Positions 1 to 11,643 of a DNA stretch of 64,000 nt are shown here, in pieces; within the stretch, counting starts at the first letter, position 1, and each line of letters begins with the position of its first letter. The DNA is taken from contig NZ_KK073874.1 in assembly GCF_000585375.1 (NCBI RefSeq), positions 4,092,001 to 4,156,000 on the forward strand. Direction: 5' to 3'. Origin of the DNA: Cryptosporangium arvum DSM 44712 (GTDB lineage Bacteria; Actinomycetota; Actinomycetes; Mycobacteriales; Cryptosporangiaceae). A program made the position numbers and the translations under genes. Below the pieces are notes generated by a model. That model was given only the letters and a program-made list of their open reading frames with translations. It searched no databases and was not told the DNA's origin.

Positions 1-38
1 ACCGTGCGCGCCACCGGTTCGGTGGTCGCCTCGCTCAT
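1..38 (-). CDS. N-terminus of the next gene of the peptide cluster, cut by the window edge
   Basis: An ATG at 38 reads leftward off the window and overlaps the stop codon of the TlpA-like gene by the ATGA arrangement used repeatedly in this cluster. Only twelve codons are visible (MSEATTEPVART). The 4-nt overlap suggests translational coupling, so the peptide cluster probably continues to the left. Function cannot be told from this fragment. Confidence 0.55.
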   Translation of the reverse strand, partial: MSEATTEPVART

Positions 39-571
39 ACGGCCGGCACGGCCAGCCGGTCCACCGACGACGCGTCGCTGACCAGGAGCCGGCCGTCACC
101 GTCGAGCTGGAACACGGTCGGGTAGCCGGTGACACCGAACGCCCGCTTCACGACGCCACCGGTGACGTCCTCGACGACCACCCGAGCCGCCGGGGACAGC
201 CGGTCGACGTACCCGGCCGCCTCCTCCGGCGTACCGACGACGACGGCGAGGGCGCTCTGCCGGCCGCCGGGGAGACGCTCCGCGTAGGACACGAACTTCG
301 GCAGGAGGGCTTCGCACGGCGTGCAGCCGGGGCTGAAGAACCCGATCACGGCACCGTGGGGGAGCTCGTTCCGGAGCAGCGGACGCCCGTCGGTGTCGGT
401 GGTGGTGAACGCCTCGATCTGCGCGCCGACCGGCAGAGCCCGCGGGCCCGGCAGACCACCGGGCGGGGTGTCGCCCTGCTCGCGCAGACGCCGGATGACT
501 CCGAAGAGCAGCAGCAGGTTCAGCAGGGTCAGCGCGTTGGTGACGGCGAGCGCGGCGACGACGTAGGTCAC
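35..571 (-). CDS. Membrane-anchored TlpA/MauD-like thioredoxin (first copy)
   Basis: This 178-residue protein has one N-terminal membrane segment (about residues 3-25), then a thioredoxin-like domain with the redox motif CTPC near residue 83 in the context FFSPGCTPC, and a cis-Pro region GYPTVFQLD near residue 150. The layout matches TlpA/ResA and MauD-type thiol-disulfide oxidoreductases that work outside the membrane. The GTG start at 571 is preceded by an AGAAGGGA ribosome site. It lies downstream of two cysteine-rich peptide genes, and a second protein of the same type is encoded at 3846-4370, so a role in making or shuffling disulfides in those peptides is inferred. A perfect hairpin separates it from the peptide genes. 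Confidence 0.85.
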   Translation of the reverse strand: MTYVVAALAVTNALTLLNLLLLFGVIRRLREQGDTPPGGLPGPRALPVGAQIEAFTTTDTDGRPLLRNELPHGAVIGFFSPGCTPCEALLPKFVSYAERLPGGRQSALAVVVGTPEEAAGYVDRLSPAARVVVEDVTGGVVKRAFGVTGYPTVFQLDGDGRLLVSDASSVDRLAVPAV

Positions 572-601
572 GTCGGAGGTCCCTTCTGCCGGTGGATACG
601 A

Positions 602-634
602 ACTAGCCGGCCGCAGGTGCAGCGGCCGGCTAGT
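602..634. terminator. Perfect 13-bp hairpin between peptide genes and the redox gene
   Basis: ACTAGCCGGCCGC (602-614) and its exact reverse complement (622-634) flank a 7-nt loop. It lies in the 114-bp gap between the stop of the second peptide gene (686) and the start of the TlpA-like gene (571). There is no long U tract, so it may act as a partial terminator or 3' stabiliser that makes the peptide mRNA more abundant than the downstream redox mRNA. The structure is seen directly; the role is inferred. Confidence 0.6.
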
Positions 635-685
635 CAGGCTGGTGCGCCGGAACCGCGACGAAGGACGGCGCCGGCGGATCTCGGA

Positions 686-874
686 TCAGCAGTAGTAGTC
701 ATGGCACTTGCCGATGTACCACTCGCTGCAGCTCCCGGCGCAGTACCGGTTGTCCTGCCGGTAGAACGAGCCGTAGCAGTGCACGCACCGGTACTCCATC
801 TCGGCCAGCGCGGTGGTCCGTGGGACGACGACGGAAAGGAGGCGGTCCGCCAGCTTGACGACGGTATTGATCAC
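686..874 (-). CDS. Cysteine-rich secreted peptide precursor (62 aa, 6 Cys)
   Basis: GTG at 874 follows CGGAG with a 7-nt gap. The 62-residue product has a 24-residue leader ending TALA and a 38-residue core with six cysteines (core positions 6, 9, 21, 25, 33, 38); the last residue is Cys, and the core is rich in Tyr. The leader matches that of the neighbouring peptide at a basic residue 7, Asp10, Leu13, Pro18, a basic residue 19, Ala22 and Ala24. A-L-A looks like a type I signal peptidase site, and a signal peptidase gene lies in the cluster. An even number of Cys suggests three disulfides. I recognise no known family; an antimicrobial or signalling peptide is a guess. Confidence 0.75.
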   Translation of the reverse strand: MINTVVKLADRLLSVVVPRTTALAEMEYRCVHCYGSFYRQDNRYCAGSCSEWYIGKCHDYYC

Positions 875-928
875 GGGGTTGCTCCGTTCGACGATCCGAT
901 TTCCCGGAAAGGCAGTTCAGAAGCTCGC

Positions 929-1156
929 TCAGCAGCACCCTGGTGACGTGCTGTACGGCGTCGAGTAGCAGGAGTTCTCCCGCATCGCGAAGCAGTACTG
1001 ACCGCCGGACACGTACTTGTTCCAGTAATAGACACAGCTACTGCCGCCGCAGGCGGTGTAGGCGTGCCGGCACATGATGCCGCAGGCGGACGCCCGTGCC
1101 TTGGGCAGCATGGCCGCGAGCATGGTGTCGCCCATCCTGGTGAGAAGTCTGGCCAT
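929..1156 (-). CDS. Cysteine-rich secreted peptide precursor (75 aa, 8 Cys)
   Basis: I start this gene at ATG 1156 rather than at the longer reading from 1210, because GGAAGGA sits at the right distance upstream and the product then lines up with the second peptide. The leader is 24 residues ending RASA; the 51-residue core begins with Cys and ends GCC, with cysteines at core positions 1, 5, 12, 17, 31, 39, 50 and 51. It carries several Tyr and a Trp. Eight Cys could form four disulfides. Its promoter region, inside the 3' end of the SARP gene, carries an 11-bp-period direct repeat of the SARP-operator type. No family match is recognised. It is not a methylamine dehydrogenase light chain despite the Mau-like neighbours, being much shorter. 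Confidence 0.75.
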   Translation of the reverse strand: MARLLTRMGDTMLAAMLPKARASACGIMCRHAYTACGGSSCVYYWNKYVSGGQYCFAMRENSCYSTPYSTSPGCC

Positions 1157-1215
1157 GATGGTCCTTCCGCCGCTGAGACCGACGCCGTGTCGGCAGGGGC
1201 ACCCTGACACGTGTC

Positions 1216-1233
1216 TTTAACGTTCCGCTAACG
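1216..1233. promoter_or_regulatory. Direct heptamer repeat, candidate SARP operator upstream of the peptide genes
   Basis: On the minus strand CGTTAGC and CGTTAAA are separated by 4 bp, giving an 11-bp period, the classic spacing of SARP operators. The pair lies about 60-75 bp upstream of the first peptide start and overlaps the last codons of the SARP gene. The related CGTTAA sequence recurs in the divergent promoter at 5041-5062. The repeat is visible; binding is inferred. Confidence 0.45.
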
Positions 1234-2008
1234 ATGTGCTATCGGCCCGGGGGCGGCGGATCGCGCCGATCAGGCGGCTGATGCGTACTCCCGGAGCGGT
1301 GCCCAGATCTCCGGCGAGGATCCGGCAGAGCTGGTCGTGCACCGCGAGCGCGGACGCGAAGTCGCCGCGCTCCAGATGAGCACTGATCAGGTGCTCCCAG
1401 GCGCGCTCCCGGTAGGGCGTCAGCTGCACCAGGGACTGCATCGCGTCGATGACGGCATCGTGCTCGCCGAGCGCGAGACGCGCTTCCGCGAGGTCCTCGG
1501 TGGCCCGCCGGCGACGTTCGTCCAGCGACGCGGCGACCGCGGCCACCCAGGGGGAGGAGAGGTCGGTACACGCGTCCCCGCGCCAGAGCAGCAGAGCCTG
1601 CTCCAGTGCGGCCGCGCGCCGCGCCGCGCCGGACGGGAGCGGGCTGTTCCTGGCCTGCCGCACGAGGTTCTCGAAGGCGTCGAGATCCGTGGTGGCGTCC
1701 GGCGCGCAGAGCACGTAGCCGGGGCGTCGGGTGCGCACGACCCGCGCCGCCCTCGGCCCGCCGAGCCGCACCAGCCCCTGGCGGAGCGCGCAGACGTGCC
1801 CCTGCAGTTTGGTCGTCGCCGTCGCCGGTGGATCGTCGCCCCAGATCGCCTCCAGCAGACGGGGGACACCGACGACGGTGCCGACGTCCAGCGCGAGCGT
1901 CGCGATCAGGGCACGGCGGCCGGGTCCGCCGAGCGCGAGCGGCTGCCCGGCGACGGTGACCTCGATCGGGCCGAGCACCGACACCTGTACCAGCCCGGCG
2001 GTGCTCAC
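1217..2008 (-). CDS. SARP-family transcriptional activator (OmpR-like DNA-binding domain plus BTAD)
   Basis: The start is GTG 2008, whose GTGA overlaps the stop of the ABC transporter, giving 263 residues. Residues 8-100 form a winged helix of the trans_reg_C type (VSVLGPIEV to VVRTRRPGYVL), followed by a bacterial transcriptional activator domain of TPR-like helices (about 105-250, with PYRERAWEHLISAHLERGD). This is the usual architecture of pathway-specific activators of specialised metabolism in actinomycetes. The position inside the peptide cluster, immediately upstream of the peptide genes, suggests that it turns on the peptide and export genes. Candidate operators lie at 1216-1233 and 5041-5062. 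The larger upstream reading frame is the transporter's complement and is not used. Confidence 0.9.
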   Translation of the reverse strand: MSTAGLVQVSVLGPIEVTVAGQPLALGGPGRRALIATLALDVGTVVGVPRLLEAIWGDDPPATATTKLQGHVCALRQGLVRLGGPRAARVVRTRRPGYVLCAPDATTDLDAFENLVRQARNSPLPSGAARRAAALEQALLLWRGDACTDLSSPWVAAVAASLDERRRRATEDLAEARLALGEHDAVIDAMQSLVQLTPYRERAWEHLISAHLERGDFASALAVHDQLCRILAGDLGTAPGVRISRLIGAIRRPRADSTSLAER

Positions 2009-3849
2009 GGCGCGATCCGATCGGCGCGCGTGTCGTCGTATCCGGAGGCTTGCAGGCGGAAGAGGTCGGCGTAGTGGCCGCCGCACGCCATGAGCTCCCG
2101 ATGGGTGCCCAGCTCGGTGATCCGTCCCTCCTGGAGCACGGCGATGGCGGTAGCGTCGCGCACGGTGTTCAGGCGGTGGGAGATGAGGAGGCTGGTCCGC
2201 TTCTCCCGGAGCGCGGTGAGCCGCCGATGGACCTCGTGTTCGGCCTCGACGTCGAGGCCCGCGGACGGCTCGTCGAGGACCAGGACGTCGGCCTCCACAC
2301 GCAGTGCCGCCCGGGCGAGGGCGATCCGTTGCCACTGGCCACCGGAGAGCACGACGCCGGTGCTGCGGAAGCCCGCGTCGTCGTCGGAGAAGGCGCGGGT
2401 CAGCAGGGTGTCGTAGCCCCGGGGGAGCTTCCGGAGCGTGTCGTCCAAACCGGCGGTGTCCGCCGCTGCACGCACCCGGTCGGTGTCGTCGAGCCCGTCC
2501 AGGTCTCCGAGGGCGATGTTCTCGTGCGCCGACAGGTCGTAGGTCATGAAGTCCTGGAAGGCGGCGCCGATGCGGGCCCGCACCGACGCCGGATCGTAGG
2601 TGCTGATGTCGACGCCGTCCCAGCGAACGACGCCGCGGGTCGGTCCGTAGAAGCCGCAGAGCAGTTTCACCACCGTCGACTTCCCGGCGCCGTTGCTCCC
2701 GACCAGGGCCAGCGACGTGCCGCGCGGGATCCGGAGCGTCAGGCCACGCAGCACCCAGTCGTGATCGGCCGCGTACCGGAACCAGACGTCGTCGAACTCC
2801 AGCGCGTCGCGCAGCCGGGGAGCGGGCGGGAGGGAGGAGGCGGCCGCGGATCGGCGTGCTCCGGCGGTGACGTCCACGTAGTGCCCGAACATGATCAGGG
2901 TCTCTCCGAGGTTGGCGATCTGCTGCACCAGGCTGGACACCGACATCTGGAGTGCGCCCAGCGCAGCGATCACGACGACGAGGTCGCCGATGGTGGCCCG
3001 TCCGCCGGCGACCTCCCGGACGAACACTCCGAGCGCGGCCAGCGACACCAGCCCGGTCAGCGCGGCCAGTCCGCTGTCGACGCCCAGCGCGAGCCGGTCC
3101 TGCTCCCGTTCCTGGCGCTGCGCCGAGCGGAGCTCACGGATCATCCGGCCGCGGAAGAACCCACTCAGGCCGAACAGCCGGATTTCCTTGGCGGCGCGCA
3201 TGTCCAGGAGGAGCGCGGCGTAGAAGGCCTGGCGACGGAAGATCGGTGCGACCCGCTCCATCATGGCGCCGCGGAGCCGGGCCAGCCGGGCCTGGGCGAC
3301 GAACGTCGGCACGGTGGCGAGAAGAATGAGCAGACCGACCACCCAGGACCAGCGCAGCAGCGGAACCGCGAACCCCACGATCGTGATCACGTCCTGACCG
3401 ACGCCGAGGAAGACCATGCTCAGCTGGGCGGGCGCGAACTGGCTGGCCTCGCGGGCGAGGCGGAGGCGGTCGTGGTAGGTGCTGTCCTCGAGCTCGGTCA
3501 GGCCGGGATTCGCCGACACGGCGCTGAACAGCTCGACCTGTGTCCGTACCGTCACCCGTCGTTCGGTCTCCGAGCGCACGTATCCGGAGAGATGGGAGAC
3601 CACCGGCGTCACGACCGCGAGCGCTCCGAAGCCGAGCACGCCGGCCCAGATCCGGGTGCTGTCCTGAGCGGACAGCCCGTCGACGATCGCGCGGGTGGAC
3701 CAGGCCACGGCCACCGGTGCCAGGCCGGCAACCACCATCACACCGACGCTCACCGCGGCGGCCCACGGCGCCGCTCCGACGTAGATCCCCAGCGCGCGCC
3801 GGAAGATCGTCGCGGCCCGGCGGATCCCTCGCGCCGACCGGGGGGTCAT
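2005..3849 (-). CDS. ABC exporter with fused membrane and ATPase domains, no C39 peptidase
   Basis: This 614-residue half transporter has a six-helix exporter domain (about residues 20-320) and a nucleotide-binding domain with Walker A GSNGAGKST, Q-loop QDF, signature LSGGQWQR, Walker B VLVLDEP and H-loop SHR. It lacks the N-terminal C39 cysteine protease of bacteriocin exporters, so leader removal must be done elsewhere, and a type I signal peptidase gene lies at 5110-5589. It overlaps both neighbours by 4 nt (ATGA with the TlpA-like gene, GTGA with the SARP gene). The likely cargo is the two cysteine-rich peptides or an unmodified precursor; this is inferred from position only. Confidence 0.88.
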   Translation of the reverse strand: MTPRSARGIRRAATIFRRALGIYVGAAPWAAAVSVGVMVVAGLAPVAVAWSTRAIVDGLSAQDSTRIWAGVLGFGALAVVTPVVSHLSGYVRSETERRVTVRTQVELFSAVSANPGLTELEDSTYHDRLRLAREASQFAPAQLSMVFLGVGQDVITIVGFAVPLLRWSWVVGLLILLATVPTFVAQARLARLRGAMMERVAPIFRRQAFYAALLLDMRAAKEIRLFGLSGFFRGRMIRELRSAQRQEREQDRLALGVDSGLAALTGLVSLAALGVFVREVAGGRATIGDLVVVIAALGALQMSVSSLVQQIANLGETLIMFGHYVDVTAGARRSAAASSLPPAPRLRDALEFDDVWFRYAADHDWVLRGLTLRIPRGTSLALVGSNGAGKSTVVKLLCGFYGPTRGVVRWDGVDISTYDPASVRARIGAAFQDFMTYDLSAHENIALGDLDGLDDTDRVRAAADTAGLDDTLRKLPRGYDTLLTRAFSDDDAGFRSTGVVLSGGQWQRIALARAALRVEADVLVLDEPSAGLDVEAEHEVHRRLTALREKRTSLLISHRLNTVRDATAIAVLQEGRITELGTHRELMACGGHYADLFRLQASGYDDTRADRIAP

Positions 3850-4370
3850 CCGTCACCCAGCACGTCGCTCAGTTCGTGGCCTCTGCGCGTGAGCCGGCCG
3901 TCCGCGTCGAAGAGCAGGAAGCTGGGCGTCGCCGTCTCGCCGAAGACCGCCGTCAGGTAACCCGGGTCGCTCTCGGTGACGAGGGTTCCGGTCTTCTCGA
4001 GCACGGGGCTGAGGTTGTCGGCCCGGCCCTCGGACACGGTCAGCACACTGACCACCCGGGTGCCGTCACCGGTGAGTTCGTCCGCGCGCGACGCCAGGCG
4101 CGCGGCCTGCGCCGGGCAGTGCGAACAGCCGGTGGAGAAGAACGCGACGAGTGCGGGGCCGCCCGCGAGGTCGTCGCGGCTCAGCCCGTCGTCGCCGGTG
4201 CTGAAGTCCGGGATGGTCGCTCCGACCGGTAACCCGGTGTCCGGAGGGGTGCGGAGGTCGATCAGGGCCGCCTCGGTCTCACGCAGGCGGCGGATGATCG
4301 CCGCGCTGAGCACGAGGTCGACGAGAACGAGGGCCGTCAAGACGGCCACGATCACGGAGAGGATTGCCAT
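3846..4370 (-). CDS. Membrane-anchored TlpA/MauD-like thioredoxin (second copy)
   Basis: This 174-residue protein has an N-terminal membrane helix (about residues 3-27), the redox motif CSHC in FFSTGCSHC near residue 79, and a thioredoxin-fold tail with TATPSFLLFDADGRL. It is a distant paralogue of the protein encoded at 35-571, sharing the layout anchor, PVGA, FFS-GC-xx-C. The gene overlaps the ABC transporter gene by 4 nt and lies 42 bp after a MauE-like gene. MauD and MauE are known together as factors needed for disulfide formation in the methylamine dehydrogenase light chain; here the client is more likely the Cys-rich peptides. Confidence 0.87.
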   Translation of the reverse strand: MAILSVIVAVLTALVLVDLVLSAAIIRRLRETEAALIDLRTPPDTGLPVGATIPDFSTGDDGLSRDDLAGGPALVAFFSTGCSHCPAQAARLASRADELTGDGTRVVSVLTVSEGRADNLSPVLEKTGTLVTESDPGYLTAVFGETATPSFLLFDADGRLTRRGHELSDVLGDG

Positions 4371-4412
4371 GCGGAGCCCCGTTCGAAGACGTGCCGCAGC
4401 GCCCGGACCGGG

Positions 4413-4958
4413 TCAGGAAGGCGAGGCCGGGCGGCGGAAGAGCCAGAGCAACTCGTCGAGCCAGACGAGGGACGCGACGAGGAATCCGGCGGCTGCGAAC
4501 GCGACGATCAGCTGAGCCGCCGGCAGGCCGGTCACTCGCTCGGTCGAGGTGGTCACGGCACCGCCGAGTGCGACGAGGGAAGCGGCAGCGAGAACACCGC
4601 TCCGCGCCACGTGACGTCGGGCGACCGGGGTGCTGGACACCCCGAAGCAGTGGCAGCCGGTGGTGGCGCGCCGCCCCACGGCGACGGACAGCGCGGCGGT
4701 GAAGCCGCCGAAGAGAAGGGTGGCTCCGGCCAGCCCGGCGACGAGGCCGCCGGGCCACACGAGGGCACCGAGCACCGCCGCCTCGGCCACCACGGCCAGT
4801 GCGGCCAGTGGAGGCGCCCAGCGGCCGGGAACGACCCGGAGTGCACCGAGCCCGCCGACGAAATCGCGGAAATCGCCACGGCTGCGGAGTTTGCTGAAGA
4901 GGGATACCGAAAGAACCCCGATGACCACTAGTGCCACCGTGGCGACAACGACGCGCAT
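4413..4958 (-). CDS. MauE/DoxX-type redox-associated membrane protein
   Basis: This 181-residue protein has four to five hydrophobic segments and a CHCFG motif near residue 97 (TTGCHCFGVSS), typical of MauE-like membrane proteins thought to pass electrons between a thioredoxin-like partner and the membrane. The opening LFSKLRSRGDFRDFVGGLG is the usual start of this family. It is the first gene of the leftward operon. With the two CxxC proteins it would form a complete oxidising relay for exported peptides. Regulation is probably through the SARP-like repeats in the divergent promoter at 5041-5062. Confidence 0.88.
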   Translation of the reverse strand: MRVVVATVALVVIGVLSVSLFSKLRSRGDFRDFVGGLGALRVVPGRWAPPLAALAVVAEAAVLGALVWPGGLVAGLAGATLLFGGFTAALSVAVGRRATTGCHCFGVSSTPVARRHVARSGVLAAASLVALGGAVTTSTERVTGLPAAQLIVAFAAAGFLVASLVWLDELLWLFRRPASPS

Positions 4959-5040
4959 GAGGCCCCCCGTGGGCCAATAGTCGGTGCGGACAAACGCGAG
5001 TCGAACTGTTTTGGCAACCTACGGAGATTCGAAACGTACG

Positions 5041-5062
5041 CGTTGTTAACGTTAACGTCAAC
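5041..5062. promoter_or_regulatory. Tandem GTTAAC repeats in the divergent promoter of the peptide cluster
   Basis: GTTAAC, GTTAAC and GTCAAC follow one another directly at 5045-5062, in the 150-bp region between the leftward MauE operon and the rightward signal peptidase gene. A/T-rich hexamers are scarce in this genome, and the CGTTAA core also occurs next to the peptide promoter. It is a candidate binding site for the cluster SARP; the period here is 6 bp rather than 11, so this is less certain. Confidence 0.4.
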
Positions 5063-5109
5063 CAATTGCGGAAGCGCTCCGGCGATCGGTGCGCGAGGAG
5101 GTGGAGCCA

Positions 5110-5589
5110 TTGTGGACGACGAAGTCCGCGGTCCGCGCGGTGCTGCCGACGGCCCTGGCGGCGACGCTGGGTGTCCTCGTCGGAGGCACTCTGGTGGCGC
5201 GCCGGCGATTGCTCGTGATCGACGTCGTCGGCGACAGCATGTCGCCGGTCTACGACCACGGTGACCGGCTCCTGGTCCGCCGGACCCGTCGGTTCCGGGT
5301 CGGCGACGTGGTGATCGCCCATCATCAGGTCGGTGGCCGGCGAACGCTGCCACCCGGATCACTGGCGACGAGTTGGCTGGTCAAGACGTTGGCGGCGCTG
5401 CCAGGAGATGCCGTGCCGCCCTCCGTCGCCGCCGCGGTCGGCAGTGACCGGCTGATCGTGCCGCCCGGTTCGGTGGTTCTGCTCGGCGCGCACCCGGCGA
5501 GTGCGGACTCGCGACTGTGGGGATTGGTCCCGGCCGAGGACCTCGCCGGTGTGGTGATCACCCGGCTGGGTTCCGCGCCGTCGCCCTGA
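5110..5589 (+). CDS. Type I (S26) signal peptidase of the peptide cluster
   Basis: The start is taken at TTG 5110 because AGGAGG lies 8 nt upstream; a GTG at 5089 has no such site. The 159-residue protein has an N-terminal membrane segment (about residues 12-30), the serine box GDSMSP with catalytic Ser43, and the lysine box LVKTLAALPGD with Lys92. These two boxes are diagnostic of S26A signal peptidases. It is divergent from the leftward operon and shares its control region. Since the exporter has no peptidase and both peptides end their leaders with A-x-A, this enzyme is the obvious candidate for leader removal. Confidence 0.88.
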   Translation: MWTTKSAVRAVLPTALAATLGVLVGGTLVARRRLLVIDVVGDSMSPVYDHGDRLLVRRTRRFRVGDVVIAHHQVGGRRTLPPGSLATSWLVKTLAALPGDAVPPSVAAAVGSDRLIVPPGSVVLLGAHPASADSRLWGLVPAEDLAGVVITRLGSAPSP

Positions 5590-6145
5590 TCGACGGTGGT
5601 GCCGAGCGGCGGAGGTGGTTCGGGCGCGTACCGCGGTTCGCACCGGAGTCGTCGGGCCGATGTGAGCGTTACCAATCGAGGATTGCGCCGAGCCCTCTCA
5701 GCCGGTCAACCACGACCGCACTCGCCTTTCCGGATGGCCCGGCCGTCCCGGCCGAAAACTATTCGCCTGTCCGAATCGGCGGCGTCGGCGGCGCCGATTC
5801 CCGTTCAGCGCCGGACCTACCGGTACGGCCCGGTTCCCGCGTTCGTGCCGGGCCGGGATCACGGTCTGCGCGCGACCGCCCGTGGACCGCGCTGTTCGGG
5901 CTGGGCTGTTCGTCCGGTCCGGCGAGGCGGTCTCCGGCGCCTCGCCGGCCGGGGCGGACCGGGCCGTCACCGCCCGCGTAGGCGCACCAACGCGAAGACA
6001 TGAAGTGCCATCGCCCGGTCCAGCTCGGTTCCCTCGCCGCTGTGACGGCGGAGCGTGTCGCACGCGTCGCCTAGATCTCGACGGCCGCGATGACGTCGAA
6101 ACCCTTTCGCCAGCCGCATCGAAACGTCAGGGTCACTTGCGCCGG
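5590..6145. other. Non-coding stretch with two hairpins
   Basis: No convincing gene is seen here. Two perfect inverted repeats are present: a 9-bp stem at 5773-5781/5792-5800 and a 10-bp stem at 5919-5928/5939-5948. Either could end transcription from the signal peptidase gene. The right part (6074 to about 6135) may hold a few codons of a lost minus-strand gene next to the truncated GH31 gene. Confidence 0.4.
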
Positions 6146-7219
6146 CTGGTCGAGCAGGGCGTCGACTGTTTCAAGACCGACTTCGGCGAGCGCATCCCGC
6201 TCGACGTCCGGTGGAGCGACGGAGCGGACCCGGACGGTATGCACAACCGGTACGCGCAGCTGTACAACGAGGCGGTGGCCGACGTGCTGTCGGACGCCCG
6301 CGGCGCCGGTGACGTCGTCCTGTTCGCGCGGTCCGCCACGACCGGTGGGCAACGTCTGCCGGTGCACTGGGGCGGGGACAGCACCTCGACCTTCGCCTCG
6401 ATGGCCGAGACCTTGCGCGGCGGTCTCTCGCTCGCGCTCAGCGGGTTCGGGTTCTGGAGCCACGACATCGGCGGCTTCGAGGGAACCCCCGATCCCACCG
6501 TGTTCGTCCGGTGGGTCCAGTTCGGCCTGCTGTCGTCGCACAGCCGCCTGCACGGCAGCGGTTCGTATCGGGTGCCCTACGCCTTCGGTGACGAGGCCGA
6601 GCGGATCACCCGCGAGTTCCTGCGCCTGCGCTACTCGCTGATGCCCTACCTGTGGGCGACCGGCCGGCAGGCGGCCGAACGCGGCCTGCCGGTCATCCGC
6701 CCCATGGCGCTGGAGTTCCCGGACGATCCCGGCGCCGCGTACTGCGACCGCCAGTACATGCTCGGGGCCGATCTCCTGGTCTGCCCGGTGTTCGATCCGG
6801 ACGGTGCCGTGGAGTACTACCTCCCGCCGGGCCGATGGACCGACTGGTGGACCGGCGACGTCACGCACGGCCCGGCCTGGCGCACCGACGAGTACCCGCT
6901 GGACCGCATCCCGCTGTGGGTGCGGGGACCGGCCGTCATTCCGATGACCACGCGGGTGGACCGCCCCGACCACGAGTGGCTCGACTCGCTGGAGCTGCGT
7001 GTCTTCCCGGCCGGTGGCGGGGCCGCGGTGAAGCAGGTGACCGTGACCGATGAAGCCGGACGGGAGGCGACCTGGCAGGTGACCATCGACGACGAGTTCC
7101 TCGCGGCCGTTGGCGCTGACGGAGCACCCGAGTTCTCCTTCTCGGACGCCGGTCAGCGGGTCGGCGTCTCGCGCGAGGGCCGCGCCCGACTCCCGCGGCG
7201 TGCCGGGACCCCCGGCTGA
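6146..7219 (+). pseudogene. 5'-truncated GH31 alpha-xylosidase (YicI-like)
   Basis: From about residue LVEQGVD onward the frame matches the C-terminal half of YicI-type alpha-xylosidases closely: the nucleophile motif KTDFGERIP, the acid/base region VHWGGDSTS, LSGFGFWSHDIGGFEG, HSRLHGSGSYRVPY and the distal beta domains. The N-terminal sandwich and first half of the barrel, roughly 390 residues, are absent, and the sequence upstream shows no family match. The frame itself stays open, so this is a deletion, not a frameshift. No start codon with a ribosome site precedes the domain. It should be inactive. Confidence 0.8.
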
Positions 7220-7356
7220 CCCGCGCGACCCCGGGTCGCCGCCCGCTCGAGCGCTTCACCCCGTCGACGGGCCAGGGTGCGGACCCGTGCCGGGCACCGG
7301 TGCGAACGGGGGTGGGCACGACCGAGGGTGGTGGGAACACCAGCTGAGGAGATGCC

Positions 7357-7959
7357 ATGGAGTACGCGATCGAAGTGATCGTCCTGCCGGTTTCCGACGT
7401 CGACCGCGCGAAGGCCTTCTACACCGCACTGGGCTTCCGGGAGGACGTCGACTACCGCGGGCCCGACGGGTTCCGGGTCGTGCACGTCACTCCGCCGGGT
7501 TCGGCGGCGTCGATCGTCATCGGCAGCGGGATCACCGAGCAGACGCCGGGGTCGTCGCAGGCCGTGCACCTCGTCGTGGACGACATCCGGGCCGCCCGGG
7601 CCGATCTCGAGGCCCGCGGCGCCCGGCCGAGTGCGGTCTTCCACGACGCGGGCGGTGTCTTCCACCACGCCGGGGTGGTGGACCGTGTCCCCGGCCCGCA
7701 TCCCGACCGGCAGTCGTACGGGTCCTTCCTGTCGTTCACCGACCCGGACGGGAACCTGTTCGTGGTGCAGGAGGTCACCACGCGCCGTCCGGGCCGCGTC
7801 GACCGCGTCGTCTACCGGTCGGTGGACGAGGTGGAGAAGGCTCTGATCGACGCCGCCCGCGCGCACGGCGAGTACGAGAAGGAGATCGGGCGGGCGGACG
7901 AGAACTGGCCGGCCTGGTACGCCGCCCACCTGGCCCGGGCGGCCGGGCTCGGCGCCTGA
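7357..7959 (+). CDS. VOC (glyoxalase/bleomycin-resistance fold) protein with helical tail
   Basis: The ATG at 7357 follows GAGGAGATGCC. Residues 1-140 form a VOC domain (VIVLPVSDVDRAKAFYTALGF near the start, FTDPDGNLFVVQEV at the end). Residues 145-200 are a charged helical tail (VEKALIDAARAHGEYEKEIG and WPAWYAAHLARAAG) often found attached to actinobacterial VOC proteins. The VOC fold binds metal in dioxygenases and glyoxalases but not in resistance proteins; the substrate is unknown. The gene stands alone, followed by a strong bidirectional hairpin. Confidence 0.85.
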   Translation: MEYAIEVIVLPVSDVDRAKAFYTALGFREDVDYRGPDGFRVVHVTPPGSAASIVIGSGITEQTPGSSQAVHLVVDDIRAARADLEARGARPSAVFHDAGGVFHHAGVVDRVPGPHPDRQSYGSFLSFTDPDGNLFVVQEVTTRRPGRVDRVVYRSVDEVEKALIDAARAHGEYEKEIGRADENWPAWYAAHLARAAGLGA

Positions 7960-7971
7960 GCCGTCAGCACG

Positions 7972-8012
7972 GCGTCGGTCCCGCCCGGCCACCGGCCGGG
8001 CGGGACCGACGC
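7972..8012. terminator. Bidirectional terminator with a 19-bp perfect stem
   Basis: A 19-bp stem with a 3-nt loop (ACC at 7991-7993) fills the 60-bp gap between the convergent VOC and SRPBCC genes. The stem contains GTCGGTCCCGCCCGGCC and its exact reverse complement, extended by GC on each side. It has no U tract, as is usual in high-GC actinomycetes, and should stop transcription from both sides. Confidence 0.85.
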
Positions 8013-8019
8013 GTGACGC

Positions 8020-8472
8020 TCACCCCCGTGGGGCGTAGCGGGCCTCGATGGCCTTGACGGTGTTGCCGAGCGCCTTGTCGAGCTGGCCCTTCGCGACCGT
8101 CCCGAGCAGGAATCCGACGATTTTTCCCTTCAGGTTCTTCCCCTCCCGGACGACGACGGCGTCCAGCACGGTCATCCCGTCGGCGCGCCGGGTGAGCGTG
8201 TAGGTGTGGCCCGAGGCCCCGCCCCACAGGTTCGAATCGATCGTCGTCATCACTATGCGGTGCGGATCCGACCAGTCGTACCGGAGCCGCTCCCAGACGC
8301 CGCCGGACCCTTCGGTCACGTCGGCCCGGGTGGGGCCCTGGTCGTGCACCTGGAGCCGGTCGTCCGCGCTGGCGCTGAAGAGCGTGGAACGGCCGGGCCC
8401 GAAATCGGTGATCCCGGCGACGAGCTGCTCCGGTGTGGCGGTGGTGGTCTTGCTCATGCGAATCGTCGACAT
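8020..8472 (-). CDS. SRPBCC (START-like) family protein
   Basis: A protein of about 150 residues with the polyketide-cyclase/START-like pattern: an N-terminal helix and strand, RLRYDWSDPHRIVMTTIDSN, HTYTLTRRADGMTVLDAVVVREGKNLKG, and a long C-terminal helix. Such proteins bind hydrophobic ligands; this subgroup is usually uncharacterised. I chose ATG 8472, with CGGAG upstream, over ATG 8457, but neither site is strong. The gene is divergent from the large LuxR-type regulator, with a 77-bp gap, so the regulator may control it. Confidence 0.75.
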   Translation of the reverse strand: MSTIRMSKTTTATPEQLVAGITDFGPGRSTLFSASADDRLQVHDQGPTRADVTEGSGGVWERLRYDWSDPHRIVMTTIDSNLWGGASGHTYTLTRRADGMTVLDAVVVREGKNLKGKIVGFLLGTVAKGQLDKALGNTVKAIEARYAPRG

Positions 8473-8549
8473 GCGCTGAGCGTCGCTCCGGGAACGGGGC
8501 CATCGCACCCGTGGTGGACACTGGTCCGTACCCGGGACGAAGGAGAGCG

Positions 8550-11246
8550 GTGCTGCTGGGGCGGGGGCGCGAGTGCGAGGCCCTGGACGGTCTGCTGCGT
8601 GACGTCCGGGCGGGGCGGAGCCGGGTGCTGGTGCTGCGCGGCGACGCCGGCATCGGGAAGAGCGCCCTCCTGGACCACGTGGCCGGGCGGGCCGCGGCGG
8701 GCCGGGTCGTCCGCGTCGCCGGCGTCGAGGTCGAGTCCGACATCGCCTACTCGGGGCTCCAGCAGCTGTGCGGCCCGCTGCTGCCGCACCTCGGCGCGCT
8801 GCCCGGCGTCCAGGCCGCGGCGCTGAGCACGGCGCTCGGGCTGAGCGCCGGGAGCGCGCCGGAGCTGCTCCCGCTCGGTCTGGCGGTGCTGAGCCTGCTC
8901 GCCGAGGCCGCGTCCGAACGGCCGGTCGTCGTCGTGGTCGACGACGCGCACTGGCTGGACCGGATGTCCGGGCTCATCCTCGGCTTCGTCGCCCGCCGCC
9001 TGGACGCCGAGGCGGTGGCGCTGATCTTCGCGACCAGGCAACCGAGCGACGAGCCGACGCTCGGCGGGCTGCCCGAGCTCCGGATCGGCGGATTGCCCGA
9101 CGGCCCGGCCCGGACGCTGCTGAACTCCGTGCTGCCCGAACCGGTCGACGCGGCGGTGCGGGAGCGGATCCTCGCCGAGGCCAGGGGGAATCCGCTCGCG
9201 CTGCTCGAACTGCCCCGGGGATCGACGTCGGCGGAGTTGGCGTTCGGGTTCGGCGGTCACCGACCCACGCCGATCGCCGGCCGCGTCGACGAGGGCTTCC
9301 GGCAGCGGATCGCCGCGCTGCCGGCCGAGACCCGGGTCCTGCTGCTGACCGCCGCGGTCGAACCGACCGGCGACGTCCCGCTGCTGCTGCGCGCACTCCA
9401 GCTGCTCGGCGTCAAGATCTCCGCGGCCGAACCGGCGGCCACCGCGGGCCTGCTCGAGCTGGGGGCGGGTGTGCGGTTCCGTCATCCGCTCGTCCGGTCG
9501 GCGAGCTGGCGTTCCGCCGACGCCACGCTGTTGCGTGCGGTCCACGCGGCGCTGGCCGACGCCACCGACCCGGCCGACGACCCGGATCGCCGGGCCTGGC
9601 ACCGCGGCCACGCGACGCTCGAGCCGGACGAGGAGGTGGCGGGCGAGCTGGTGGCCGCCGCCGACCGGGCGCTGGCCCGGGGAGGCCGGGCCGCGGCCGC
9701 CTCGTTCCTCGAACGCGCGGTGGTGCTCACCCCGGATCCGCAGCGGCGGGCCGCCCGGGTGCTCGCGGCCGCGCGTGCCCACCTCGGTGCCGGGGCCGCC
9801 GAGGCGGTGGCCGATCTGCTCGCCGCGGCCGAGCTCGGCCCGCTCGACGCGCGCCAGCGGGCCGAGGCCGGGCGGCTCCGCGCCTCCGCGGCGTTCCTGG
9901 TCGACCCGAGCGGCCGGTCCGGGCCACCGCTGCTCGACGCGGCGGCCGGCCTCGCGACCCTCGACGAGGCCGCGGCGCGGGAAACCGCCGTGATGGCGTT
10001 CGTCGCCGTGCTGCAGGGCGGCCGCTCCGGTGATCCGGACGCGGTGCGCCGCACCGCCGAGGCGGCCGGAACGCTTCCGCGCGGAGACGATCCGGCCGGG
10101 CGGCTGGTGGACGGTCTGGTCGCCTGGAGCCTCGACGGGCCCGGACCGGCCGCGCCCCGGCTGTCCGCGGCGCTGGAGACGATCACCGCCGCCGACGATC
10201 CGGAGGTGCTCTGGCTGTCGGCGTCGGTGGCGCTGGACCTCCTGGATCAGGCGGCGCTGGACCGGCTCACCCGCCGCGGCCTGGACTCCGCGCGCCGGAC
10301 CGGAGCACGGTCGGGCCTTCCGGGCGCGCTGTCCGGCCGGAGCGAGGCGCTGCTGGCCGCCGGTCGGCTCGTGGAGGCGCGGAGCCTTCTCGACGAGGCG
10401 CGCACGATCGCCGAGGCCACCGGTCGCCCGAGTCACCTCGGCACCGAGGCGCTCGTCGCCGCCCATCAAGGCCGGGAGAAGGACGCCGAGGAGGCGATCG
10501 CGGCGGCCGAGCGGGCCGCCGCGTCGACCGGGGTGGGCCGCCTGATCGGGGTCGCGGCGCTGAGCGGGGCGGTCCTCCGCAACGGCCTGGGTCACTTCCC
10601 GGCCGCGCTGGCCGCCGCTCGGGTCGGCACGGCGTTTCCCGAGCTGTCGCTCTACCCGCGGGTGTTGAGCGAGCTGGCCGAGGCCGCGAGCCGGGCCGGG
10701 GTGCCCGCCGCCGTGACCGAGGCCCGCGACCGGCTCGCCGAACGGGCCGCCGCCGGGACGCCGTGGGCGCTCGGTGCCCACGCGGTGGCGGAAGCGCTGA
10801 CCGGCCCGGCGCCGGCAGCGGAGGAGTGGTTCCGGGCGGCGATCGCGCACTTCGACGTCGACCTGCTGGCGTTTCCGCAGGCCCGGGCGCGGTTGCTCTA
10901 CGGCGAGTGGCTGCGCCGGGAGGGCCGCCGGGTCGACGCCCGCGCGGCGCTGCGTGCCGCCCACGAGGCCTTCGCGGCGATGGGGGCGGAGGCGTTCGCC
11001 GACCGCGCCGCCCGGGAGCTGACGGCCACCGGCGAGATCGTGCGCAAACGTTCCGCGGACGCGCGCGACGAACTGACGTCGCAGGAGGCGCAGATCGCCC
11101 GGCTGGCGCTGGCCCATCGCACCAACGCGGAGATCGCCGCGATGATGTACCTGAGCCCGCGCACGGTCGAGTGGCACCTGCGCAAGGTCTTCACCAAGCT
11201 CGGGATCACGTCCCGCCGGGAGCTGGCGGCCGTCCTGGAGGGCTGA
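8550..11246 (+). CDS. Large ATP-binding LuxR-family transcriptional regulator (LAL type)
   Basis: The start is GTG 8550 behind AAGGAGA, giving 898 residues. It begins with the family's typical LLGRGRECEALDGLL, then Walker A GDAGIGKS (residues 31-38) and Walker B VVVVDDAHWLD. A long middle of TPR-like helices follows, and the end is a LuxR helix-turn-helix (ELTSQEAQIARLALAHRTNAEIAA, SPRTVEWHLRKVFTKLGI). Such regulators sense metabolites and switch on neighbouring metabolic genes. Nearest targets would be the divergent SRPBCC gene or unlinked genes; no biosynthetic cluster adjoins it. Confidence 0.92.
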   Translation: MLLGRGRECEALDGLLRDVRAGRSRVLVLRGDAGIGKSALLDHVAGRAAAGRVVRVAGVEVESDIAYSGLQQLCGPLLPHLGALPGVQAAALSTALGLSAGSAPELLPLGLAVLSLLAEAASERPVVVVVDDAHWLDRMSGLILGFVARRLDAEAVALIFATRQPSDEPTLGGLPELRIGGLPDGPARTLLNSVLPEPVDAAVRERILAEARGNPLALLELPRGSTSAELAFGFGGHRPTPIAGRVDEGFRQRIAALPAETRVLLLTAAVEPTGDVPLLLRALQLLGVKISAAEPAATAGLLELGAGVRFRHPLVRSASWRSADATLLRAVHAALADATDPADDPDRRAWHRGHATLEPDEEVAGELVAAADRALARGGRAAAASFLERAVVLTPDPQRRAARVLAAARAHLGAGAAEAVADLLAAAELGPLDARQRAEAGRLRASAAFLVDPSGRSGPPLLDAAAGLATLDEAAARETAVMAFVAVLQGGRSGDPDAVRRTAEAAGTLPRGDDPAGRLVDGLVAWSLDGPGPAAPRLSAALETITAADDPEVLWLSASVALDLLDQAALDRLTRRGLDSARRTGARSGLPGALSGRSEALLAAGRLVEARSLLDEARTIAEATGRPSHLGTEALVAAHQGREKDAEEAIAAAERAAASTGVGRLIGVAALSGAVLRNGLGHFPAALAAARVGTAFPELSLYPRVLSELAEAASRAGVPAAVTEARDRLAERAAAGTPWALGAHAVAEALTGPAPAAEEWFRAAIAHFDVDLLAFPQARARLLYGEWLRREGRRVDARAALRAAHEAFAAMGAEAFADRAARELTATGEIVRKRSADARDELTSQEAQIARLALAHRTNAEIAAMMYLSPRTVEWHLRKVFTKLGITSRRELAAVLEG

Positions 11247-11253
11247 TGCCCGC

Positions 11254-11643
11254 TCAGGGGGTGTGGACCCTGTCCACCTCGATCGTGAGGAGGACACGCT
11301 GCTGCTCGCCGCCGCCGTAGTTGGGGTACGGGCGGCCGATGTACTTCTGGGACAGCTCTTCCAGGTTCTGCCGGGCGCCGCTGGTCTCGGCGGCGACGAC
11401 GGTGCCGCGCAGCGCCCAGGACCGCAGGGGTGCGGCCGGGTCGGCGATCCCGATCGCGACGCGCGGGTCGCGGCCGATGTTGCGGGCCTTCTGGTGGGTG
11501 TCGACCGTGTTGATGAGGACGTGCTTGCCGTCCGTGTCGGCCCAGGTCTGCGAGATCTGGGGCGAGCCGTCGGGCATCAGCGTGGTGACGAAGCAGATCG
11601 CCTTCCCGCGGAGAACCTCGAGCAGATCGTCGGGAAGTGGCAT
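11254..11643 (-). CDS. PPOX-class flavin/F420-dependent oxidoreductase
   Basis: A 129-residue split-barrel protein of the pyridoxamine-5'-phosphate-oxidase-like superfamily. Typical segments are AICFVTTLMPDGSPQISQTWAD near the start, HVLINTVDTHQKARNIGRDPRVAIGIADP in the middle and YPNYGGGEQQRVLLTIEVDRVHTP at the end. Many actinobacterial members use F420 or FMN for small-molecule reduction. It lies 13 bp after a TetR gene on the same strand, so the pair is probably co-transcribed from the promoter with the large operator at 12306-12345. Confidence 0.85.
   Translation of the reverse strand: MPLPDDLLEVLRGKAICFVTTLMPDGSPQISQTWADTDGKHVLINTVDTHQKARNIGRDPRVAIGIADPAAPLRSWALRGTVVAAETSGARQNLEELSQKYIGRPYPNYGGGEQQRVLLTIEVDRVHTP

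Follow-up and report, generated by a model that had tools for sequence, protein, structure and literature searches.

A recurrent actinomycete gene set around small cysteine-rich peptides in Cryptosporangium arvum, with a probable role in their export and disulfide formation

We analysed a 64,000-nucleotide stretch of the 9.2-Mb genome of Cryptosporangium arvum DSM 44712 (G000:C1:4092001-4156000, the window hereafter), in which positions 1 to 5589 hold genes for two short cysteine-rich peptides, pepA and pepB, together with membrane, thiol-redox, export and protease genes. They belong to a gene system that is real and recurrent, that is unnamed, and that has been flagged in part before. The pepA precursor (929 to 1156, reverse strand; 75 residues) has a 24-residue leader ending in ASA and a 51-residue core with 8 Cys, and the pepB precursor (686 to 874, reverse strand; 62 residues) has a 24-residue leader ending in TALA and a 38-residue core with 6 Cys. 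Both leaders are free of Cys, in agreement with the 8 and 6 mature-part Cys counted in a preliminary description of this DNA.

The partner genes named in that description were all found where it had placed them, and profile searches backed their names. On the reverse strand lie a 181-residue membrane protein of MauE/DoxX type with CHC as its CxC motif (4413 to 4958; PF07291, E 4e-21), the 174-residue MauD-like protein TlpA1, whose N-terminal transmembrane (TM) segment is followed by RRLRE and which carries CSHC (3846 to 4370), the 614-residue half-size ATP-binding cassette (ABC) exporter ABC1 (2005 to 3849; PF00005, with PF00664 below its cut-off) and a 263-residue regulator of the Streptomyces antibiotic regulatory protein (SARP) type with a BTAD domain (1217 to 2008; PF03704, E 2e-31). 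A second MauD-like thioredoxin-fold protein, TlpA2 (35 to 571, reverse strand; 178 residues, N-terminal TM segment, CTPC), is 71% identical to the TlpA of a paralogous locus, L011. Thioredoxin-fold matches were weak in both TlpA proteins, with AhpC-TSA at E 2e-5 in TlpA2 (25 bits against a cut-off of 26) and at 1.5e-6 in TlpA1 (over the cut-off). An S26-family peptidase with one N-terminal TM segment, Ser in GDSM and Lys in LVKTLAALPGD reads divergently (5089 to 5589, forward strand); its start is probably the TTG at 5110, which stands 8 nt after AGGAGG. ABC1 gave no Pfam match to a C39 peptidase, as had been proposed.

The layout was less simple than the single locus of about 5.6 kb first described. 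The genes are there, but they form two adjacent modules that the interval cuts: a pepA module of S26 (divergent), MauE, TlpA1, ABC1, SARP and pepA, and a pepB module of pepB and TlpA2 that continues, just left of window base 1, with another ABC and another S26 gene. Only the first codons of that second half-exporter, ABC2, fall inside the window (1 to 38, reverse strand); the full gene (G000:C1:4090209-4092038, which is L009:10209-12038) encodes a protein 46% identical to ABC1 over 588 residues. The second S26 gene lies entirely outside (G000:C1:4089739-4090212, which is L009:9739-10212), and its product is 47% identical to the window S26 over 155 columns. Likewise, the 4-nt overlaps that had been reported are present at TlpA1/ABC1, ABC1/SARP and, at the window edge, TlpA2/ABC2, but the other junctions differ.

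The precursors share a common leader of the form ...DRLL..VPxxxAxA and have Cys-rich, hypervariable cores. Among 28 aligned peptides, leader positions P18 and A24 were invariant and D10, R11 and A22 were at least 90% conserved; pepB has all five of these residues and pepA lacks R11. Scans of the 28 peptides with Pfam and NCBIfam gave no meaningful match and no model for them, and the peptide profile had 0 hits among the sequences of solved structures. Solved structures likewise offered no relative for pepA (7 hits, the best at a not meaningful E of 0.4) or for MauE (1 hit, E 0.34). A pepA ortholog in the sister species G003 is 87% identical in amino acids and keeps 8 of 8 Cys, and relatives of pepB occur at four further C. 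arvum loci, so both look like real genes. Between pepA and its ortholog, dN/dS was 0.19 (NG86) and differences fell 7/7/15 over the three codon positions, which indicates that pepA is under purifying selection as judged from this pair. The pepA-type module was the sole one found in the 17 kb fetched from G003 (L173).

The C. arvum genome holds five such loci: the window locus and four others with the same kind of peptide, an ABC exporter and an S26 peptidase. Their seven precursors have 8 and 6 Cys (window), 8, 8 and 6, 12, and 6, and three of the five loci have all four partners, MauE, TlpA, ABC and S26, complete. The fifth locus, L013, looks decayed, yet its peptide gene (6 Cys) is still open.

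When 296 genomes of the class were searched with a profile of the seven own-genome peptides (A1), 19 genomes matched, with 47 hits in all at E up to 0.01; 7 of these hits belong to C. arvum itself. The other 40 matches fell in 36 regions, which were examined with partner profiles built from own-genome copies only. From this peptide-only search, a Cys-rich peptide together with all four partners was found in 26 of the 36 regions. Five regions (L081, L086, L088, L089 and L090) proved to be false matches in unrelated open reading frames (ORFs), with no short Cys-rich peptide and none of the four partners at the thresholds used; outside those thresholds, L081 showed one weak S26 match more than 6 kb from the peptide match. 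With a second profile, of 28 peptides (A4), and a limit of E 0.001, matches came from 25 of 394 genomes of the class; a search across the phylum with it matched 2 of 296 genomes, which belong to that class as well, one being the window's own. In 18 further regions reached with A4, two of which came from a genome (G167) whose other loci were in the first set, TlpA, ABC and S26 were present in 18/18 and MauE as well in 17/18. Thus small Cys-rich genes beside homologous MauE/TlpA/ABC/S26 loci, whose absence elsewhere would have refuted the preliminary description, were found in many other genomes.

Searches that started from the partners led to the same gene set. Of 41 genomes searched with MauE alone, 5 gave matches, 11 in all and 8 of these outside C. 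arvum; a leader-type peptide lay near 6 of these 8 (weakly at L175, with 4 Cys), and 4 had the peptide and all four partners. The two remaining loci were L179, with MauE only, and L174, with another Cys-bearing precursor and an ATP-grasp maturase. When named genomes were scanned with an ABC alignment and the best 80 of 551 relatives were taken, five stood at 45-48% identity, from Nonomuraea, two Streptomyces, Micromonospora and Actinomadura. MauE and TlpA accompanied all five, and peptide and S26 accompanied four, the Actinomadura locus (L096) having an ATP-grasp-type gene (PF21068) instead. No peptide, MauE, TlpA or S26 was found at the other 75 loci of these best 80; this control is weak, since no more than 4 of them reach the ABC threshold applied elsewhere and most are distant transporters. 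The MauD family model, run on the ten genomes reached through loci, matched in one genome, below its curated cut-off.

In a plasmid collection, 29 records had a close ABC relative, 16 of them from S. clavuligerus, and six of the 29 were examined. Peptide, TlpA, ABC and S26 were present in 6/6 and MauE in 5/6, and in four annotated plasmid loci the peptides are labelled 'hypothetical protein'. A tblastn search of the plasmids with MauE gave no match; it was too insensitive, because the profile finds MauE at 5/6 of the plasmid loci selected by ABC. One of these loci, L199 (BB341_RS28005 and RS33815), lies on pSCL4, a large plasmid of the antibiotic producer S. clavuligerus; each of its two precursors bears the label 'hypothetical protein', and an annotated ATP-grasp gene stands 3.5 kb downstream of S26.

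Gene content was compared over 70 loci, whose 667 predicted genes were grouped into similarity clusters. The largest clusters were ABC (60 loci), MauE (49), TlpA (36), SARP (31) and S26 (30), and the next largest reached 10 loci; splitting of clusters keeps these figures below the counts by profile. From every one of the 17 minor clusters present in at least three loci, one representative was scanned with Pfam, and no known peptide-modifying enzyme was among them; they comprised general enzymes, regulators, kinases, transporters and three clusters without a match. Nor was an immunity gene recognised among the recurring clusters. Lasso B1/B2/C enzymes, lanthipeptide, sactipeptide or ranthipeptide synthetases and radical SAM enzymes were absent from the eight window proteins and from the recurring clusters, an ATP-grasp peptide ligase of the graspetide type from the window locus and the recurring clusters, and mauA and mauB from the window proteins and the recurring clusters.

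These absences bear on two other explanations. The leader/core anatomy, the hypervariable cores and the SARP gene would fit a ribosomally synthesized and post-translationally modified peptide (RiPP) with thioether or other enzyme-made crosslinks, of lanthipeptide, sactipeptide or ranthipeptide type, whose synthetase is encoded elsewhere. We regard this as very improbable: no synthetase, radical SAM or YcaO gene is among the recurring clusters (at least 3 loci) of the 70 loci, and the parity of Cys described below suits Cys-Cys rather than Cys-Ser/Thr pairs. It is harder still to credit that MauE and TlpA are stray accessory genes of methylamine dehydrogenase unrelated to the peptides, as the automatic MauE annotation 'methylamine metabolic process' might suggest, since their link with peptide, ABC and S26 recurs in dozens of loci with no other recurring mau genes, and an actual mau-like cluster (L205) looks different.

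At two loci the same genes stood beside an ATP-grasp maturase. L174 of the sister species (6130-11271) has MauE-TlpA-ABC and SARP without S26, next to a maturase matching TIGR04187 under its cut-off, and L096 of Actinomadura barringtoniae (5138-9803) has MauE-TlpA-ABC and SARP without S26, with a maturase of PF21068; both carry Cys-bearing precursors with another leader. The MauE/TlpA/ABC part looks like a module that the peptide loci have in common with graspetide-like clusters.

The cores were also compared by their number of Cys. Over all sets 91 profile hits were read and three were dropped before counting: L089 (1 Cys), L090 (a long unrelated ORF) and one of several at L180 (3 Cys). The number of core Cys was even in 86 of the remaining 88 peptides (6 in 47, 8 in 32, 10 in 4, 12 in 1, 4 in 2 and 7 in 2), and in 67 of 69 after cores about 60% alike or more had been removed. 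Under independent coin tosses the latter count has a chance of about 4e-18, a figure that relatedness raises. The 28 peptides from the 18 further regions and six plasmid loci were even in 28/28, some being near-duplicates of earlier ones (e.g. L200 of L097). The even parity is therefore strong evidence for full disulfide pairing. In 83 of the 88 peptides a Cys lies within the final two residues, and the order C-C-CC-C-C occurs in 14 of the 47 six-Cys cores, several of them near-duplicates, and is absent from pepA and pepB. L177 and L180 stand out by several precursors, some with 10 and some with 8 Cys, and by TlpA/S26 frames that are split or present a second time.

The same counts weigh on the proposal that the peptides bind metal, as metallothionein-like, zinc-ribbon-like or scavenger proteins, with TlpA and MauE keeping their thiols reduced or aiding loading. 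A spacing of CxxC-x11-CxxxC common to pepB and one L011 paralog points that way, as does a very weak match of TlpA1 to SCO1-SenC (E 0.03). Even Cys in 67/69 non-redundant cores is not expected of metal sites, however, the Cys spacing of the peptides is hypervariable, and the clusters that recur in the 70 loci showed no gene for handling metals; we consider metal binding unlikely.

Among the partner proteins, 44 of 46 MauE hits have CxC, and 48 of 49 TlpA hits have CxxC. The preliminary description had S26 cutting after A-x-A and disulfides forming in the core; parity speaks for the second of these, and the first draws its support by analogy from features of leader and protease. Two models matched the window S26, signal peptidase I at E 7e-13 and, below the model's cut-off, the nickel superoxide dismutase (SOD) maturation protease at E 1e-9; the S26 Ser and Lys are invariant in 9/9 aligned proteins, including a small S26 beside sodN of this genome. 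The two nickel-SOD genes lie elsewhere in the genome, at G000:C1:7678252-7678629 (L091) and 8931485-8931859 (L092), with the small S26 gene adjoining the first on the opposite strand. Their leaders, MRLPRFLAPRTVAHA and MIRLFRPRAVANA, stand directly before mature HCDLPC and both end P-R-(T/A)-V-A-x-A with the mature His next; the leader of an L011 peptide ends SAVAPRTTAMA. Leader and S26 thus resemble their nickel-SOD counterparts and therefore support a cut after A-x-A, for which the sodN likeness is the best evidence of the site.

The side of the membrane on which these proteins act was read from their charges. TlpA has an N-terminal TM segment from its first residues and then an RRLRE-like stretch, with a mean of 3.56 K+R in the next 12 residues against 0.01 before, and is net positive after the TM segment in 66 of 68 proteins and the reverse in 0. 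In 66 MauE homologs positive charge gathers in two loops, at residues 21-50 and at 91-120; CxC lies in the second. S26 is positive after its TM segment in 48 of 60 proteins against 5 reversed, although its N-termini are approximate and the window S26 has K/R on both sides. By the positive-inside rule, these patterns unexpectedly place the thiols of TlpA and MauE, and less clearly S26, on the cytoplasmic face. As a control within the same genome, two LepB-type peptidases and one ResA-like lipoprotein show the opposite charge pattern; the control is small because the other five Redoxin matches were not used. In a record from Sphingomonas (L205, 902-2868), a mau-like cluster named by eye has the same MauD/MauE charge pattern and a MauA-like protein with a twin-arginine leader, which suggests that MauD/MauE there might act before twin-arginine (Tat) export.

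The charge patterns of TlpA and MauE, and less clearly of S26, point away from the order export, cleavage and disulfide formation that was first put forward. In that order the precursor would leave the cell through ABC before S26 cuts it and TlpA/MauE oxidise it, both on the outside, with the same parts in the opposite compartment. It agrees with the usual site of action of the S26 and TlpA families, which is beyond the membrane, and with the DoxX/thioredoxin pairs named oxidoreductases in lasso clusters; set against it are the 66/68 and 48/60 counts, the positive CxC loop of MauE and, as a small control, the LepB-type and ResA-like proteins. It is a serious contender, if a doubtful one, with odds that overlap those of the best explanation. 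Disulfides can form in the cytoplasm of E. coli, e.g. with inverted DsbB or VKOR (PMC4727284), and folding before export is plausible on the sequence evidence. We slightly favour oxidation and cleavage at the cytoplasmic face with the folded peptide exported last, as suggested by the charges, over the opposite. Two points temper this placement: reading topology from charges follows a rule of thumb, and the normal state of the cytoplasm is a reducing one, which would suit the outer compartment. More tentatively, the whole may be a cytoplasmic-side disulfide machine, with TlpA N-out and its thioredoxin domain inside, the MauE CxC inside, a nickel-SOD-type S26 trimming in the cytosol and the ABC protein exporting the finished mini-protein, knottin-like ones included; the true MauD/MauE pair, whose MauA has a Tat-type leader, would work likewise.

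Given the recurrence of the gene set, each module is best read as a dedicated export and oxidative-folding pathway whose products are one or a few disulfide-rich peptides of ribosomal origin, a reading to which we assign a probability of about 0.7. The conserved leader would mark the precursor; MauE, quinone-linked by analogy with DsbB/VKOR, would oxidise TlpA from its CxC to the CxxC; oxidised TlpA would form the core disulfides; S26, related to the nickel-SOD maturation protease, would remove the leader after A-x-A; the ABC half-exporter would carry the peptide out; and the SARP would control expression. Cut at residue 24, pepA is predicted to have a monoisotopic neutral mass of 5614.233 when reduced and 5606.170 when oxidised, and pepB of 4686.847 and 4680.800; for the S. 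clavuligerus peptides the oxidised forms would have 4913.219 and 4797.026. The gene sets, leader, Cys parity, conservation and charge pattern were computed, and from them we infer every reaction, the order, secretion, regulation and any antagonistic role in nature.

Several observations weigh against this pathway. Partial sets occur at L057 (no S26), L070 (no ABC), L073 (no MauE, at a contig start), L083 (S26 only) and L085 (SARP only), and likewise at L175 and L180; MauE is absent at L197 and L202. Within C. arvum, L012 has no MauE in the stretch examined, and at L013 (11156-11864) the TlpA ORF is shortened and without Cys and only a C-terminal MauE remnant is left. The pepB spacing CxxC-x11-CxxxC could also bind metal, and P-x3-A-x-A alone is present in about 6% of gene N-termini (71/1258). 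Two neighbouring 7-Cys peptides at L176 (7230-7766) are the only odd ones among the 88, and perhaps form an intermolecular disulfide pair. Finally, in the cited accounts of lasso peptides, the product persisted after deletion of sviF, mslE or mslF, although export was lost without sviF and yield was lost in the msl mutants (PMC9266682). Because these deletions kept the product, MauE/TlpA may serve export or another step.

A BTAD regulator is present at many loci; peptide and SARP-type match occur together in, for example, 23 of the 36 regions reached with A1 and 8 of the 18 reached with A4. Two CGTTA-like repeats 11 bp apart upstream of pepA (1218 to 1244, reverse strand) form a putative SARP site inside the 3' end of the SARP coding sequence. 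The window has 3 CGTTA-like matches with at most 1 mismatch, against 0.41 expected, and 1 of 100 shuffles reached 3; two of the matches lie at this site. The repeats are kept in G003, a conservation that cannot be told apart from coding constraint. Their overlap with the SARP coding end is why they were rejected as proof of SARP control. In the non-coding stretch between the divergent MauE and S26 genes (5041 to 5070, unstranded), a repeat, GTTAACGTTAACGTCAAC (5045-5062), is a possible candidate promoter or operator; it is present in G003 with one change and was read by eye. A promoter scan gave no sigma-70-like site, and three terminator-like sites against 1.1 expected were not used.

Several known systems share parts with this one. 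Nickel-SOD maturation has a short leader ending P-x3-A-x-A and an S26 that aligns through the Ser/Lys dyad; it differs in that its substrate is an enzyme and that L091 and L092, loci of 3.4 kb, showed no gene for ABC, MauE or TlpA, and the cores of the pepA/pepB class differ from the sodN substrate start HCxLPC. Nickel SOD is cytosolic in Streptomyces. MauD/MauE of methylamine dehydrogenase are the same protein pair, and in one mau-like cluster (L205) they have the same charge pattern round TM segment and CxC, but their substrate is an enzyme subunit and no ABC or S26 was seen in the 3.6-kb locus. Knottins share the C-C-CC-C-C order with 14 of the 47 six-Cys peptides, from which pepA and pepB differ; eukaryotic knottins fold in the endoplasmic reticulum. 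Glycocins and actinomycete defensins (actinomycesin) are also bacterial peptides with disulfides, and have other leaders, exporters and modification genes. Class I lasso clusters (sviceucin, humidimycin, MS-271), as described in the cited accounts, likewise tie a DoxX membrane protein (SviE/HumE/MslE) and a thioredoxin-domain protein (SviF/HumF/MslF) to a disulfide-bearing exported RiPP (PMC7168211, PMC9266682), but differ by their B1/B2/C enzymes and transporters D1-D4. Two thiol-disulfide oxidoreductases have also been reported for glycocins such as sublancin (PMC9266682).

The closest precedent is decRiPPter, a learning method whose filter demanded a transporter, a peptidase and a regulator (Kloosterman et al. 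2020; PMC7794033). It flagged three Streptomyces candidate RiPP families with mauE, one also with mauD, whose precursors have at least 8 Cys and which were untested there; the authors propose a precursor-modification role for mauE. The window locus fits the description of these families, a mauE homolog beside a short Cys-rich precursor, transporter, peptidase and regulator. It is set apart by what is described here, as the cited sections of that account name no product and give no common leader, S26 specificity, Cys parity, topology or spread beyond Streptomyces. The preliminary statement that no named system has this set thus stands as far as names go, with none found, but mauE/mauD Streptomyces candidates with at least 8 Cys had already been flagged (PMC7794033). 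No other description of the peptide class was found in the open-licence literature searched.

Many soil actinomycetes thus possess compact sets of genes, apparently for the production, trimming, disulfide bonding and export of small Cys-rich peptides, which makes them a promising candidate source of bacterial mini-proteins. If this is true, there would be a wide unnamed class of disulfide-rich mini-proteins in actinomycetes, often several per genome and possibly including bacterial cystine-knot peptides, made by a recipe of about five genes that would be simple enough for transfer between hosts. MauE/TlpA pairs would gain a function outside methylamine metabolism and nickel-SOD-type S26 peptidases a second use, and the system would offer a direct test of dedicated disulfide formation on the cytosolic side of bacteria.

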